Assembly: GCF_000739655.1 (NCBI RefSeq)
Contig: NZ_BATR01000114.1
Location: forward strand, 122,176-186,175
From: Verrucomicrobium sp. BvORR106
GTDB taxonomy: Bacteria > Verrucomicrobiota > Verrucomicrobiia > Verrucomicrobiales > Verrucomicrobiaceae
Reading direction: 5' to 3'
DNA length: 64,000 bases
In this document: positions 45,784 through 51,452 of the stretch, one piece after another
How the letters are laid out: each line of letters opens with the position of its first letter
Position numbering within the stretch: position 1 is the first letter of the stretch
Translations under genes and position numbers: made by a program
Notes under the pieces: model-generated
What the model was told of the DNA's origin: nothing
What the model saw: only the letters and a program-made list of their open reading frames with translations
Databases searched by the model: none

Positions 45784-45929
45784 CTTTTTTCATAAGTGGG
45801 AAGGCGCCGGAATGGCGATGAAAAAATCCCGCGCGATAGATTTGGCCTGAAGGCTGAAGCTGCCGGAAGTTTTGCGATGTGCCAGACGCTGAGACAGGTA
45901 TAGTGCTGGGCTGCCAAGGAACCCAAGGG

Positions 45930-46130
45930 GATCACCTTGGAGGTGTTGATGGCGGTGAGGAGGAAGCGGATGCTGTCGGCCTTCCCACCTGATTGTCCTC
46001 TGCGGAGGTACCCAACGTTGACTCGCTTAGGGCTCGTCCAACGTTGGGCTGTGTTAGAGATCCCCGCTGGGGATCAGCTTCGAACTGGGGCGGGCATTTC
46101 CAGGTGGTTCCTTGGCGCCCACCCCAAAAA
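45930..46130 (+). repeat. Dispersed modular repeat, copy D
   Basis: Block 2 (GGTGTTGATGGCGGTGAGGA ... CTGTCGGCCTTCCCACCTGA), block 3 (AACGTTGACTCGCTTAGGGC / CGTCCAACGTTGGGCTGTG) and the terminal block GATCCCCGCTGGGGATCAGC with GGTGGTTCCTTGGCG. It fills most of the 45784-46152 spacer, where no gene is seen. Confidence 0.78.
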
Positions 46131-46152
46131 GCGCGTGAATGGTCTGTTGTCT

Positions 46153-46914
46153 CTACTGCGGCGCGTTGTGCCGGGCGATTTCATAGACCCGCAGGGTGCG
46201 CTTGCCGCCATCTGAGGAGTCGTACTTGCGGGTGCCGTCGCGATTGGCCTGAATGCAGAACTCGTCCTGATCGGCCACGTCTTTGGGGAGATTGCCAGTG
46301 AGGACCACAAGGGTGCCGGTGGGCCACATGCCCGCGGCGGACATAACCACGGGTACAGCCGCTCCGGCTGCGATAGACTGGGGGTCGAGGGTGGGCGGGC
46401 GTTCGGACATCTTTTCGGCCACGAGGAAGTCTTCCTCGACCGAGACAACGCGCACGTTGATGATCTCGGTGTCCACTTTCATGGCCTCACGGCTGATCCA
46501 GGTCATGCCGACGGGGCGCAGCTTGGGGCGGCTCTTTTCCAGGCGGGCCATTTCTGCGTCGTAGAGGAGCTTGCGATCCTTTTCCGCCCGGGCGGTGGCA
46601 TCGAGTGAGGCGGAGTCCTGCGAGTTCCGGTAAGCCTGGGCCGCAGTGGCATCGTAGTTGATCGCCTTCTGCCAATCCTCTGGCATGTGCTCGTACGGGA
46701 CCTTGGCCGTGCCCGCGGAGTGGGAGACCCTGACGCCATCCGGTTCGATCTTGGTGACCGTGCAGTTCAGCAGGGTGATGGTGCCCCCTGGTTTGGGGAA
46801 GGTGATAGAAGCCGCCGTGGCTCCCTCCTGGGCTTGGGCCATGCCAGCGGCTGAGAGGCAGGCGATGGTGACGGTGAAGACAACGGGCACCAAGAGACGG
46901 TGAAGAGACTTCAT
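46153..46914 (-). CDS. Secreted hypothetical protein
   Basis: A 253-aa protein with a clear signal peptide (MKSLHRLLVPVVFTVTIACL, cleavage near AQAQ-EG). Residues about 36-85 (FPKPGGTITLLNCTVTKIEP, then DGVRVSHSAGTAKVPYEHMP) are a small beta-rich segment that, to my recollection, recurs in Verrucomicrobia exported proteins. A charged helical middle (95-140) and a C-terminal domain with VDTEIINVRVVSVEEDFLVA and PTGTLVVLTGNLPKDVADQD follow. I do not recognise a named family and infer no function beyond export. It stands alone between repeat-rich spacers. Confidence 0.75.
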   Translation of the reverse strand: MKSLHRLLVPVVFTVTIACLSAAGMAQAQEGATAASITFPKPGGTITLLNCTVTKIEPDGVRVSHSAGTAKVPYEHMPEDWQKAINYDATAAQAYRNSQDSASLDATARAEKDRKLLYDAEMARLEKSRPKLRPVGMTWISREAMKVDTEIINVRVVSVEEDFLVAEKMSERPPTLDPQSIAAGAAVPVVMSAAGMWPTGTLVVLTGNLPKDVADQDEFCIQANRDGTRKYDSSDGGKRTLRVYEIARHNAPQ

Positions 46915-47275
46915 GGGAGTTTGGGGGAGAGGCCGGAGTGTGCGGTTACGCCTTTGGACGCAGTTCAGCCTGTGGGTATTCAGGTGATTTTACGTCATTT
47001 TTTGACCCGCTCTGCGGGAGACGCAAGCCCGCTTCGCGGGAGACACAAGACTGGAAGACACAAGACGCAAGACTTGAGCTGGCGCATGGGAGGGTAGGCC
47101 GGGCTTTGGGACACCATGCACACCCTTTTTGGTAGTTTGCCGATATAGGGGCCTCGCGAGCACGGTTTCATGCGGGGGCAGAATGAGGCTGGAGACGTGG
47201 CGCGAGGGTGGAGATGGCAGACGCTTTGGTTAGTGCCTGCCAGGGAACCTTGGGGGGCGAAATGCCGTCTGGGGA

Positions 47276-47545
47276 TTTCTCAAAACAGCCTTGTCCAGAG
47301 GAGCTTGGGGAGCGCACGCATCTTGCGTGCTGTTCGCGGCATCTTGCCGGGAACGTCAGGCAGCGTGGGGCCTCGTGAGGCGCAACCAAGAAGTCGTGCC
47401 ACATCGCATTCGAGAGACGTGGAGGTGTTGGTGGCGGTGGGAGGGAGAGGATGATGGCGGCCTCTACACCTGAGTAGCATCGCTGGACGGCACCCAACGT
47501 AGACTCGCTGGAAGCTCGTCAACGTTGGGCTTGTAGCCCCATCCT
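47276..47545 (+). repeat. Dispersed modular repeat, copy E
   Basis: The fullest copy and very close to copy A: block 1 (GCACGCATCTTGCGTGCTGT, CGGCATCTTGCCGGGAACGT), block 2 (GGAGGTGTTGGTGGCGGTGG) and block 3 (CCAACGTAGACTCGCTGGAA, CGTCAACGTTGGGCTTGTAG). Confidence 0.8.
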
Positions 47546-47654
47546 CTTCGAGGAAGAGCTTCGACTGAGTGCGTGGAGGGCGTCGGTTCCTTGGCGGCCA
47601 CCCCCCAAAGAGAGCGCGATTGGGATAGGTGGCAAGGAACCGCCTCTGGCTCAG

Positions 47655-47930
47655 CCCTCAGTAAGTCCCCTCAGAGGATTTGGGCCTGAAAGGCCCACAG
47701 AGCCCAGCCCAGGGGCAAAGGCCACGAAGTGGACGGAGACCCTGGGTGCCTCCAAAGAGGATGATCAGGTGGGAAGGCCGACAGCATCTGCTTCCTCCCC
47801 GCCGCTATCAACATCTCCACGTCGGTTGGACCTGATGTCATGCGCTGACTGACGTTCGCGGCAAGATGCCGCGAACAGCACGCAGGGATGCGTGCGCTCC
47901 CCGAGCTTCCCAGGCACTTGCCCAAGTGGG
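47655..47930 (-). repeat. Dispersed modular repeat, copy F (inverted)
   Basis: The minus-strand copy. 47655-47757 matches block 3 of copy B (CTCAGAGGATTTGGGCCTGA, AGGCCACGAAGTGGACGGAG). Block 2 follows (AGGTGGGAAGGCCGACAGCA), then block 1 (TGACGTTCGCGGCAAGATGC, GAACAGCACGCAGGGATGCG). With copy E it makes another head-to-head inverted pair. Confidence 0.8.
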
Positions 47931-47969
47931 TCGATGGCCGCAAGGCCGTAGCCTGTACGATTCCTTCAA

Positions 47970-49100
47970 GTGAATGGCTCAGACGGGTACTTTGCGACAC
48001 CATCGACACCCTTTTTGGTAGTTCACCGAAATAGAGAGGGGGTGCTTTTTTGGCGTAACTCGGAAATATGGTGTCGATGGTGTCGCAAAGCGGGATCTGA
48101 GTTGCCCTGTGCAGTAAGCCGCCAGCAGCGTGATGAGGAGTCAGTGGGTCTGGGGTGATTGTCATCAATCCCTCCGGCCACTGACCGACGGGGACCGTCG
48201 GACTACTCCTGCAGCGTCGCTATGGGTGTAGTCCGGATGTGCCATCCGGCTCAGTCGCTGCGGGTAGGTAGGAGCAAGTGGCCGATAGGTCGGATTTGCA
48301 AGCAGCGTGTCAGCTTGGGTGAATGGCTCAGACGGGTACTTTGCGACACCATCGACACCCTTTTTGGTAGTTCACAGAAATAGAGAGGGGGTGCTTTTTT
48401 GGTGTAACTTGGAAATATGGTGTCGATGGTGTCGCAGAGAGGGATAGCTTGCCCCGTGCAATCAGCCGTCAGCAGCGTGATGAGGAGTCAGTGGGTGTGG
48501 GATGATTGCCATCAATCCCTCCGCTTACTGACCGACGGGGACCGTCGGACTACTCCTGCAGCGCCGCTATGGGTGTAGTCCGGATGTGCCATCCGGCTCA
48601 GTCGCTGGGCGTAGGGAGGGATCAGCTCTCAGACGGGGTGCTTTGCGACACCATCGACACCTTTTTTGGTAGTTCACCGAGATAGAGAGGGGGTGCTTTT
48701 TTGGCGTAACTTGGAAAAAGGGTGTCGATGGTGTCGCAGAGGGGGATTGTTTGCCTCGTGCAGTAAGCCGCCAGCGGCGTGATGAGGAGTCAGTGGGTGT
48801 GGGATGATTGCCATCAATCCCTCCGCTTACTGACCGACGGGGACCGTCGGACTACTCCTGCAGCGCCGCTATGGGTGTAGTCCGGATGTGCCATCCGGCT
48901 CAGTCGCCGCGGGTAGGTGGGAGCAAGTGGCCAGTCTGTAGGATTTGCAGGCAACGCGTCAGCTTGGGTGAATGGCTCAGACGGGTACTCCATAACACCA
49001 TCAACACCCTTTTTGGTAGTTCACAGGAATAGAGAGGGGGTCTTTTTTGGCGTAAGTTGGAAATATGGTGTTGATGGTGATATGGAGAGGGTGCTCAACA
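47970..49100. repeat. Tandem structured repeat, four hairpin copies
   Basis: Units of about 300-350 bp begin at 47970, 48319, about 48621 and 48969; the last is cut after the hairpin. Each has a 20-bp inverted repeat around a 59-61-nt loop: arms 47991-48010/48070-48089, 48340-48359/48419-48438, 48642-48661/48721-48740 and 48989-49008/49067-49086. The loop is conserved (CTTTTTGGTAGTTCAC ... GAGAGGGGGT ... TTTTTTGGNGTAA). In copy 4 six arm positions differ from copy 1 with matching changes in both arms, and one pair is lost. Units 1-3 also carry CCGACGGGGACCGTCGG, CCGGATGTGCCATCCGG and an outer GGACTAC/GTAGTCC pair. Structured RNA or a DNA hairpin element are both possible. Confidence 0.85.
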
Positions 49101-49286
49101 CGACCTCATGGGACGTTTGTACGGGACCGGGACAAGAATGTCCCTTCCTCCTTTTACCGAGTCGTTTTGACTGCCCAGCCCCTCCCAGATGCCAGCTCCA
49201 GTCTTGCGTCTTGTCTCCAGCGAAGCGTGTGAACTAAAGATTGAATCGCATCGGGTTACCAAGTCTCATGAGGTTGGAGCAAATCG

Positions 49287-51452
49287 ATGGGTTCCACCTT
49301 GTCGTCGTTCATGGGCTACGCCATTTCACAACTCAAAGGTCGATGGATCGGCGCGGTTCTTTGGCTCTGCTGCCTGCCAGCATTCGCACAGGAGGTGCCG
49401 CAGGTGCTCACTGAGTGCGCGGCCATCCGGTCTCTGCCACGGGAGGTGGCGGCGCAGGGGCGTCCGGTGCAGCTGCGGGGTGTGGTGATGTTTTGCTACC
49501 GGAAGAAGGACGGGGCGATGGTGGTGCAGAATGGGGGCGTGGGCATCTATGTGCACGGCCTGAGGGTGCCGGATGCATCCTTGCCGGGCTGGCTGGCGCG
49601 GGGCACGGTGATCGAGCTGACGGGCGTGACGGAGGCGGGGAATTTCGCGCCCGTAATTCAGGCGCAGAAGATTCGTGTGCTGGGCACGGAGCCCCTGCCG
49701 GTGCCTGCGCCAGTTAGTTTCTCTGAACTGCTGGACGGGAAATGGGACTGCCAGTTGGTCCGGCTGCGCGGGGTGGTGCAATCTGTGGAGGAGCGACCGA
49801 ATGACGCTGAGCGCGTGCGGCTGGAGCTCACGGCCAATGGCGGACGCATCACGGTGAATGTGCTGGAGTCCCTGCCCGATTTGCCTCGGCTCGTGGATGC
49901 GGAGGTGGAGGTGGAGGGCGTGAACTTCACGTACTTCAACAACCGGAGGGAACTGGTGGGAGCTCGCGTGCAGGTGATGAATGCAGGCGATGTGCGCGTG
50001 CTGAAGCGCGGGCCGGAGGATCCGTTTGCGGTGCCGGAGCTGCACCTTTCCACCCTGCGACCCTTCTCGCCCAGCGGGGTGACGTATCATCGACGTCGCT
50101 GCACCGGTACGGTGACGCTGGCGCGGCCGGGGCAGTTTTTCTATCTGCAGGAGGGTGGGCGCGGCGTGCGGGTAGAGACGCGTGATCAGACCCCGCTCCA
50201 GCCTGGCGACCGTGTGGAGGCGTCAGGGTTCGTCGAGGTGGGGGATCACTTTGGCAAGTTGCGGGAGGCAGTGGTGCGGAAGGTGGGAGTCGCCCCGCGA
50301 CCTGAGCCCCTTCAGATCCAGCGCAAGCGGGTACTTGGCACGAACCTGCCGGGCAGCGAAACGGACGCAGACGATGTGGATGGGCTCTATGCAACACTGC
50401 AAGGGCGGCTGGAGAAGGTGGACCTCTCTGACGCTGAAGGGCCGCGACTGCTGGTGGAAAGCGAAGGGCGATTGGTCTCGGCGACGCTCGGCAGAGACAC
50501 GCCACCGGCGGCGCTGGGGCGGTTCGAGCCCGGGAGCGAAGTGCGGATCGATGGGGTGATCCGCGTCGAGCTGGCGTCAGGATGGCCGGCACAGGATTTT
50601 CCGCGCCCGGTGAACTTCCGCCTCTATGTCCACGGGCCGGGGGACGTCCAGCTTGTGCGTGCTGCGCCGTGGTGGACGCCACAACGGCTCTGGTTGCTGC
50701 TGGGAGGCATCTGCACGGTGTTGGCGGTAACTCTGGGGTGGAACTGGCTGCTGCGCCGCCGCGTGGAGCAGCGGGGCTCCCAGCTGGCTCAGGAGATGAG
50801 CGCCCGGCGTGAGGCGGCGGTGGAGTTCGATGCGACCCTGCGTGAGCGTGAGAGGCTGGCGGCGGACCTGCATGACAGCCTGGAGCAGTCCCTCACCGGC
50901 ATGGCGCTCCAGCTGGAGGCAACCGAGGCGCTGCAAAGAGAAGCCCCCGCCCGCAGTGCGCAGCATCTGGGCCTGGCGCGGCAACTCCTGACCCGCAGCC
51001 GGGAGGAGGTACGCCGATCCGTGTGGAATCTGCGCTCCCAGGCGCTGGACAACCGCTCCCTGGCGGATGCTCTGCGCGAGACGGCGGCAGGCTTTGCCGA
51101 AGGGCAGGCGCTCCGCATCGAGGTGGCGAGCGAGGGGGCTGCCCGCCCCCTGCCTGATGTTATTGCCGGGAACCTGCTGCTGCTGGCGCGTGAGGCCCTG
51201 ACAAACGCCATCAAGCACGGCGCGGCGAGGAACATCAAGGTCAGCGTGGTCTACCACGCGGCAGACGTGGAGGTCGCGGTGAAGGACGATGGCAAGGGGT
51301 TCGACCCCGGCAATCACCCCGGACCCCGGGACGGGCACTTCGGCCTGCAGGGGATGCGGGAGCGGATGAAGCGGCTCAATGGTACGCTGGCCATTACCAG
51401 CACTCCAGGGCAGGGGACGCGCGTCTCTGCCACGGTGCCAGTTGCACCCTAG
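49287..51452 (+). CDS. NarL-type sensor histidine kinase with predicted OB-fold-like periplasmic sensor
   Basis: A 721-aa membrane kinase. The signal segment or first membrane helix (about 17-35, GRWIGAVLWLCCLPAFAQ) is followed by a 420-residue beta-rich periplasmic region with repeated OB-fold-like units (VQLRGVVMFCYRKKDGAMVV; LVRLRGVVQSVEERPNDAER; RCTGTVTLARPGQFFYLQEG). The second membrane helix is at about 470-490 (LWLLLGGICTVLAVTLGWNW). The HisKA_3 domain has His in LAADLHDSLEQSLTGMALQL, and the HATPase has LAREALTNAIKHGAA and DDGKGFDP. The start at 49287 has GGAG eight bases upstream. It converges on the response regulator at 51510, its probable partner. The signal is unknown. Confidence 0.9.
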   Translation: MGSTLSSFMGYAISQLKGRWIGAVLWLCCLPAFAQEVPQVLTECAAIRSLPREVAAQGRPVQLRGVVMFCYRKKDGAMVVQNGGVGIYVHGLRVPDASLPGWLARGTVIELTGVTEAGNFAPVIQAQKIRVLGTEPLPVPAPVSFSELLDGKWDCQLVRLRGVVQSVEERPNDAERVRLELTANGGRITVNVLESLPDLPRLVDAEVEVEGVNFTYFNNRRELVGARVQVMNAGDVRVLKRGPEDPFAVPELHLSTLRPFSPSGVTYHRRRCTGTVTLARPGQFFYLQEGGRGVRVETRDQTPLQPGDRVEASGFVEVGDHFGKLREAVVRKVGVAPRPEPLQIQRKRVLGTNLPGSETDADDVDGLYATLQGRLEKVDLSDAEGPRLLVESEGRLVSATLGRDTPPAALGRFEPGSEVRIDGVIRVELASGWPAQDFPRPVNFRLYVHGPGDVQLVRAAPWWTPQRLWLLLGGICTVLAVTLGWNWLLRRRVEQRGSQLAQEMSARREAAVEFDATLRERERLAADLHDSLEQSLTGMALQLEATEALQREAPARSAQHLGLARQLLTRSREEVRRSVWNLRSQALDNRSLADALRETAAGFAEGQALRIEVASEGAARPLPDVIAGNLLLLAREALTNAIKHGAARNIKVSVVYHAADVEVAVKDDGKGFDPGNHPGPRDGHFGLQGMRERMKRLNGTLAITSTPGQGTRVSATVPVAP

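Follow-up and report, generated by a model that had tools for sequence, protein, structure and literature searches.

The origin of the Sulfolobus plasmid pRN1 is a 100-bp stem-loop located 3' of its replication gene, with a stem of 21 nt and a loop of 58 nt (PMC4234260). The isolated 100-bp stem-loop is reported there to restore replication and to suffice in cis, with a requirement for the loop. The fold, unlike the letters, is shared by other pRN plasmids, in which the stem-loop is the part least conserved in sequence, and phage BIP-1, to which BMP-1 is nearly identical, also carries such a stem-loop (PMC4234260). The paper states that the pRN1 origin lacks iterons (PMC4234260, Berkner 2014), and sets its large stem-loop against the origin of the P4 alpha protein, where iterons are bound by the primase-helicase (PMC4234260). 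Dispersed palindromic repeats are also a feature of REP/REPIN-RAYT systems, whose GTAG-tagged REP palindromes have arms of 6-13 bp (PMC3733652).

The DNA analysed here (the window) is a stretch of 64,000 nucleotides from Verrucomicrobium sp. BvORR106. One of its intergenic regions contains an array of hairpins of a family here called A, with elements of a second family, B, between them. The features are listed below.

46915..49286, no strand: intergenic region with the array, between a leftward ORF (46153-46914) and a rightward ORF (49287-51452) of the ORF list; the array is upstream of both
47104..47149, + strand: half A copy, with the left arm (ATGCACACC type) and the left part of the loop only
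47990..48090, + strand: A hairpin copy 1; arms 47990-48010 / 48070-48090, each with two 9-bp repeats and of type TGCGA..CG, T run, loop of 59 nt
48163..48269, + strand: B element 1; two GTAG-tagged palindromes in inverted orientation (REP pair); equals C96:170338-170444
48339..48439, + strand: A hairpin copy 2; arms 48339-48359 / 48419-48439, arm type TGCGA..CG, 59-nt loop
48508..48615, + strand: B element 2; GTAG-tagged REP pair; equals C96:170683-170790
48641..48741, + strand: A hairpin copy 3; arms 48641-48661 / 48721-48741, arm type TGCGA..CG, 59-nt loop; the T run extends the predicted stem
48810..48920, + strand: B element 3; GTAG-tagged REP pair; equals C96:170985-171095
48988..49087, + strand: A hairpin copy 4; arms 48988-49008 / 49067-49087, arm type CATAA..CA, 58-nt loop; six pairs changed on both sides

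The original prediction of four tandem hairpins with covarying arms is confirmed at 47990-49087, with arms of 20-21 bp. The arms of copy 1 match perfectly across 21 pairs, and copies 2 and 3 each have a single T-G pair, at pair 3. Copy 4 (arms CTCCATAACACCATCAACACC / GGTGTTGATGGTGATATGGAG) differs from copy 1 at pairs 3, 4, 5, 6, 7 and 16, every one of which is compensated, and has an A-A clash at pair 8; this 21-pair numbering is one higher than in the prediction, where the same pairs were 2-6 and 15 and the clash was at pair 7. The loop had been given as 59-61 nt; with 21-bp arms it measures 59 nt in copies 1-3 and 58 nt in copy 4. RNA folding of the + strand gives z-scores of -7.43, -8.96, -8.72 and -5.33 for copies 1-4, with 0 of 200 shuffles equal. 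The rightward ORF is histidine-kinase-like by eye. Integron attC sites were considered and dropped, as no clear genes are visible by eye between the tandem copies.

It had further been proposed that the whole 300-bp unit is one structured element. This is not supported: the other hairpins of the unit belong to family B, which has a distribution of its own (56 matches in G000, the genome that contains the window, dispersed independently of A), and the unit is a tandem chimera of two independently dispersed families. Family B consists of two short palindromes in inverted orientation, each with a GTAG tag at its foot. These are the characteristics of REP/REPIN elements, and judged by its sequence B is a REP pair of known kind, corresponding to the GTAG-tagged REP dimers of PMC3733652. 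Matches to Y1_Tnp (RAYT-like) number 18, 15 and 39 in G000, G001 and G003. Family A, although likewise a dispersed palindromic repeat, differs from REP: it lacks the GTAG tag, its arms are longer (about 20 bp, against 6-13 bp), and its loop has 56-60 nt. Just left of the array there is also a 42-bp inverted repeat (window 47324-47365 / 47843-47884, 95% complementary, around 477 nt); similar letters occur in L071 and L088, which makes it another intergenic repeat family.

In the 8.69-Mb genome G000, copy 3 used as a BLAST query matches 16 complete or nearly complete copies of A on ten contigs (weakest E 1.2e-11), both single and in tandem; this and the shuffle control given below rule out chance. 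The search also finds partial pieces at window position 47104, at C166:5-45 (a contig end) and at C76:22087; the first of these is the half copy of the original prediction, which is thus real by sequence and by BLAST. A model built from the 16 copies matches 3 of 57 related genomes (G000, G001 and G003), all in one genus, in a search to which stricter filters were applied and in which the fourth genome of the genus is 76% complete. The total is 33 copies in three species (16, 9 and 8 in the three genomes). When the arm pattern was run over 384 genomes of the class, a sample with G003 outside it, the matches were in the own genome, in G001 and, as one single arm, in G155. For 14 of the 16 G000 copies, the locus also has A in one or more of the other species, and the flanks are about 79-94% identical. 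Several A arrays sit at contig ends.

Arms of the A type are also found at the ends of longer elements. Elements of about 0.4-2.4 kb with these arms (TGCGACACCATCGACACCC..) at their ends occur at L155:3400-5798 (G003 1381899-1384297), L156:1995-2400, L157:1951-2844 and L158:2230-2873. Their interiors are unrelated and contain further inner inverted stretches, for example GGACTTTTTGCCAAAAACGATG in L155, which is rich in repeats. In the G001 element of this kind in L158, an insert of ~220 bp at 2420-2640 has the inverted ends AACCTGTTTGGATAAAAAC ... GTTTTTATCCAAACAGGTT; it is not aligned to the G003 counterpart.

The arm of A can be written NNNNA-CACC-AT-NN-ACACC-C-TTTTT, in which a 9-bp repeat (ATNNACACC) occurs twice and a T run then leads into the loop. 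The CACC and ACACC blocks are nearly fixed, while the letters that precede them vary, and the ends of the stem are the variable part of A. At the putative specificity base next to ACACC (columns 11 and 20), 6 of 9 arm types have the same letter in both repeats, with 28% expected; at the second such base (columns 10 and 19) 4 of 9 do, with 21% expected. The best repeat lag is 9 bp in 7 of 8 A arm types, one type failing, and in 10 of 11 comparison arms, whose ends were picked by the author.

The two arms change together throughout the family. In the inner 18-nt arms of the 33 copies, 582 of 594 cells match and 24 copies are perfect. Uncompensated changes in other genomic copies, which the original prediction had named as evidence that would count against it, do occur, and amount to the remaining 12 cells; three of these are wobble pairs on one strand and three on the other. 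Over all 21 pairs there are 78 double-change cells, against 26.0 in shuffles (0 of 500 as high) and at most 13 in slid controls; a separate run of the shuffle control gave 43 against 12.9. The number of pairs with a double change is 11, against 8.4 when shuffled (16 of 500 shuffles as high), and that of further pair types is 25, against 20.8 (5 of 500). At the C35/C56 locus, for example, both arms read CCGTCA in G000 and CCATAA in G001. The arms also change faster than the loops while CACC stays constant: the C188 and C172 copies differ at 2 of 59 loop positions and at 8 of 18 arm pairs, 7 of them in concert (Fisher p 7e-5), and window copies 2 and 4 at 4 of 59 and 6 of 18 (p 0.009), although the copies are related and the tests are therefore not independent. 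The claim that the folded or symmetric form matters is thus upheld, in that the arms covary genome-wide and over three species.

There are signs of how this may come about. G003 (three copies) and G001 (two copies) share a cluster with co-linear flanks in which loops of either orientation occur. The C76 loop of G001 is inverted relative to those of G000 and G003, and in L106 the loop contains what reads as a copy of one inner arm. In G000 the C76 copy is composite: its two arms are unlike, and half an element lies 1.4 kb from it. The flipped loops and the copied arm point to arm-to-arm exchange at the DNA level, through which a change in one arm could be passed on to its partner. Hairpin-templated copying of arms, raised in the original prediction as an alternative cause, does therefore seem to occur.

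The pRN1 and pRN2 origins resemble A in many respects. They too are about 100 bp long, with a stem of 20-21 bp and a loop of 57-58 nt, and their fold is kept while the letters of the stem diverge. In the fetched sequence of pRN1 (L277:585-684), the stem TTATGTCCATAGTGTCCAACT encloses a loop of 58 nt with a T run at its mouth, as in A, and TGGACA occurs twice per arm, 9 bp apart. In our reading, the pRN1 stem would therefore consist of two 9-bp repeats, contrary to the statement in the paper that there are no iterons. The fetched BMP-1 sequence (L276:108-213) has TTGCCTCGT twice in its stem, as a direct repeat with a spacing of 9 bp, and a loop of 73 nt. The pattern is weaker in the fetched pRN2 sequence (stem 20, loop 57), where the best lag is 5 and lag 9 has p 0.06. 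The phage P4 alpha origin, as described in PMC4234260, is like A in having direct repeats, which in P4 are bound by the primase-helicase; it differs in being described as iterons as opposed to the large stem-loop of pRN1.

The same plan is found beside some primase-helicase genes elsewhere. The arm pattern, run over GTDB genome contigs, gave 29 stretches: 10 in G001, one inverted pair in Siccirubricoccus, and 18 stretches with one arm alone, among them one with a loose partner 696 bp away. The pair in Siccirubricoccus phaeus, the only one outside the genus, belongs to a hairpin with 71-nt arms that starts 109 bp 3' of a DUF5906 gene (PF19263, E 1.8e-21), and its inner letters (TGAACTA, then AAAAAGGGTGTC) match A by eye with one extra base between the blocks. 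In viral contig L248, found in a two-arm scan, TTTACACCA repeats followed by CTTTTT lie 77 bp 3' of a DUF3987 gene. Viral contig L217 has CGTCACACCATACACACCCTTTTTG about 130 bp 5' of a BT4734/PriCT_1 gene, and L219 has one such arm inside a helix-turn-helix gene. Two further viral matches were set aside: L218, from the one-arm pattern (3 viral stretches in all), looks like chance, and L249, from the two-arm scan, is a long, perfect palindrome and apparently an assembly artefact. We take DUF5906, D5 and DUF3987 proteins to be SF3-type or helicase-like; Pfam gives DUF5906 and DUF3987 no function. Relatives of the Siccirubricoccus helicase were not found by phmmer in the three Verrucomicrobium genomes, nor by peptide patterns among viruses, where the L248 protein finds itself alone.

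A set of 15 helicase genes was then compared with control windows from their own loci. It comprised 11 plasmid and phage records, taken in a non-random draw from 537 such records matching the Siccirubricoccus protein, two further chromosomal genes, and the two A-like cases (Siccirubricoccus and L248), which the A pattern had brought up. An inverted repeat within 400 bp on the 3' side beats every control window in 7 of the 15 genes; the best lag is 9 in 7 of 15, six of which are among the 7 that beat the controls. Leaving out the two A-like cases, 5 of the 13 genes chosen by protein alone remain, one of them marginal (the large phage Pam3, 12 vs 11, lag 8). The eight misses are four of the five large phages, a Klebsiella plasmid, a Citrobacter plasmid, the second Siccirubricoccus gene and a prophage of the own genome. 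Three of them carry an imperfect 3' repeat pair that does not rise above controls (TTGGTGTAC in Citrobacter, TGACGCAGA in Siccirubricoccus, GTGGTGAA in the prophage). A third Siccirubricoccus helicase locus (C5, below the cut-off), outside the 15-gene count, has GTCCAACC repeats.

In the A-bearing genomes themselves, the genome-wide primase search covered the DUF5906 and DUF3987 families, and no gene of either family over the cut-off lies beside any Verrucomicrobium copy of A. PF19263 is over the cut-off in one of the three genomes, in the prophage with the other repeats: its D5_N/DUF5906 gene (L236:8689-10241, G000 C164) has an array of GTGGTGAA repeats at and just past its 3' end, the partner overlapping the end of the gene. 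Each A-bearing genome has one DUF3987 gene over the cut-off (L257:6866-8602, L259:7174-8847 and G001 C21:22060-22695), in L257 and L259 with a companion ORF upstream, and in the three genomes there is no ACACCN4ACACC near it. This gene is possibly a domesticated primase-helicase, and by inference only a candidate partner of A; G004, which has no A, has two DUF3987 genes.

Family A therefore has the ~100-bp stem-loop with the stem and loop sizes of a pRN1-type origin, and the 9-bp repeat, which is a criterion proposed here. It does not lie just 3' of a primase-helicase gene of its own, as judged from DUF5906, DUF3987 and the ORFs of the window; whereas pRN origins are 3' of their own gene, the copies of A are many and chromosomal. 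Because no such gene was found beside it, A is called an orphan here and is not filed as a member; on anatomy it would at most be like a pRN1-type origin whose defining neighbour is missing.

On the basis of these comparisons, we hypothesise that A is a dispersed DNA stem-loop of ~100 bp that is likely to be an orphan replication origin of the pRN1/phage BIP-1 type, to which we give a probability of roughly 0.55. When a plasmid, phage or satellite visits the cell, its primase-helicase would bind the 9-bp repeats, of which each hairpin has four, two in either arm. All four would have to fit one helicase, and the NN specificity bases would then tend to be equal across repeats and arms. A switch of specificity would change both arms, and the matching change could arise at the hairpin if one arm is copied onto its partner, as the flipped loops suggest. 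Such a constraint would account for the joint change of the arms, the fixed CACC, the tendency of repeats to agree and the rarity of wobble pairs. The host may benefit, if the copies act as decoys that titrate invaders or lead them astray, or the hairpins may simply persist.

The main rival is that A is a miniature transposon (MITE-like), the arms being terminal inverted repeats for a putative transposase and the covariation a record of its changing specificity. MITEs and RNA-hairpin repeats such as NEMIS/ERIC are about 100 bp long, with inverted arms and many copies. Consistent with this, A has terminal inverted repeats, the same arms bound the longer pieces, and unlinked copies have the stem-loop in common and not the flanks, as judged by eye, apart from tandem copies and C166/C167. 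A search of flanks for empty sites gave one clean case of presence and absence, the C188 copy, which is absent at the matching site in G001; against G003 the left flank alone aligns, and no A is visible in that stretch. Elsewhere the junctions are blurred by other intergenic repeats. Yet at this one resolved site the stem ends show no target duplication, and the length difference to G001 is about 175 bp, some 75 more than A. No transposase was recognised by eye among the ORFs of one long element, 14 of the 16 G000 loci have A in another species too, and it is the stem ends that vary. A MITE-like origin of A is possible, but on balance we doubt it.

The covariation might instead reflect a functional RNA hairpin, an RNase III site or a terminator, under selection for RNA folding, as its strength and the very stable predicted folds would allow. 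Against this, the inner 18 pairs have 70 double-change cells and 3 wobble cells (9 are unpaired), and the mismatches show no excess of wobble, a point that also separates A from NEMIS/ERIC. The search of window 45800-49300 against Rfam found no family at its gathering score, only two sub-threshold miRNA models (best 24.7 bits, against a gathering score of 88). Copies lie between divergent ORFs in the window and between convergent ORFs in L088, and RNA gives no reason for fixed CACC blocks or a 9-bp periodicity. Because double changes so far outnumber wobble cells, and because the loops flip, the pattern points to DNA rather than RNA, and the RNA role that had been suggested for the array is highly improbable. 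It is also unlikely that the arms match solely through hairpin-templated repair or template switching, with no selection on the pair. The loops in both orientations, the inverted C76 loop and the copied arm in L106 agree with such a process, but it leaves unexplained the fixed CACC/ACACC blocks, the agreement that repeats within an arm tend to show, the faster change of arms than of loops, and the likeness to origins beside helicase genes. Repair is here taken as the route and not the reason.

The reading of A as an orphan origin is favoured by the recurrence of the same plan, with other letters, in the pRN1 origin, in phage BMP-1 and 3' of some primase-helicase genes, and more weakly in pRN2. 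Several observations count against it. The longer loci, in which the same arms flank unrelated interiors of 0.4-2.4 kb, do not resemble origins of this type, neither DUF5906 nor DUF3987 provides a cognate gene beside A, and 8 of the 15 helicase genes have no outstanding 3' inverted repeat. To these may be added the best lag of 5 in pRN2, the one A arm type that fails the lag, the agreement of columns 10 and 19 in only 4 of 9 types, and the shuffles that reach the observed counts of double-change pairs and of pair types. Among the matches listed in searches of the open-access literature there was no report of such orphan origins. More speculatively, and with rather low probability, the copies might form a library of decoy origins on the Verrucomicrobium chromosome, in which the four repeats of each orphan stem-loop mimic the origin specificities of circulating plasmids, phages and satellites. 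Both arms would switch as the invaders do, and the invading primase-helicases would be titrated or would misfire on the chromosome rather than act on the DNA of the invader.

An orphan origin of this type would connect a puzzling class of hairpins, which covary and lie between genes, with a type of replication origin that is known but has been little studied, and would offer a reason for covariation that does not involve RNA, namely four predicted binding sites for one helicase. It also suggests that pRN1-type stem-loops and P4-type repeat origins may share a design, with two 9-bp repeats per arm and a readable specificity pair, the NN before ACACC. If it is true that incoming helicases fire or are trapped at the chromosomal copies, this would be a new host-parasite interaction that takes place on origins.
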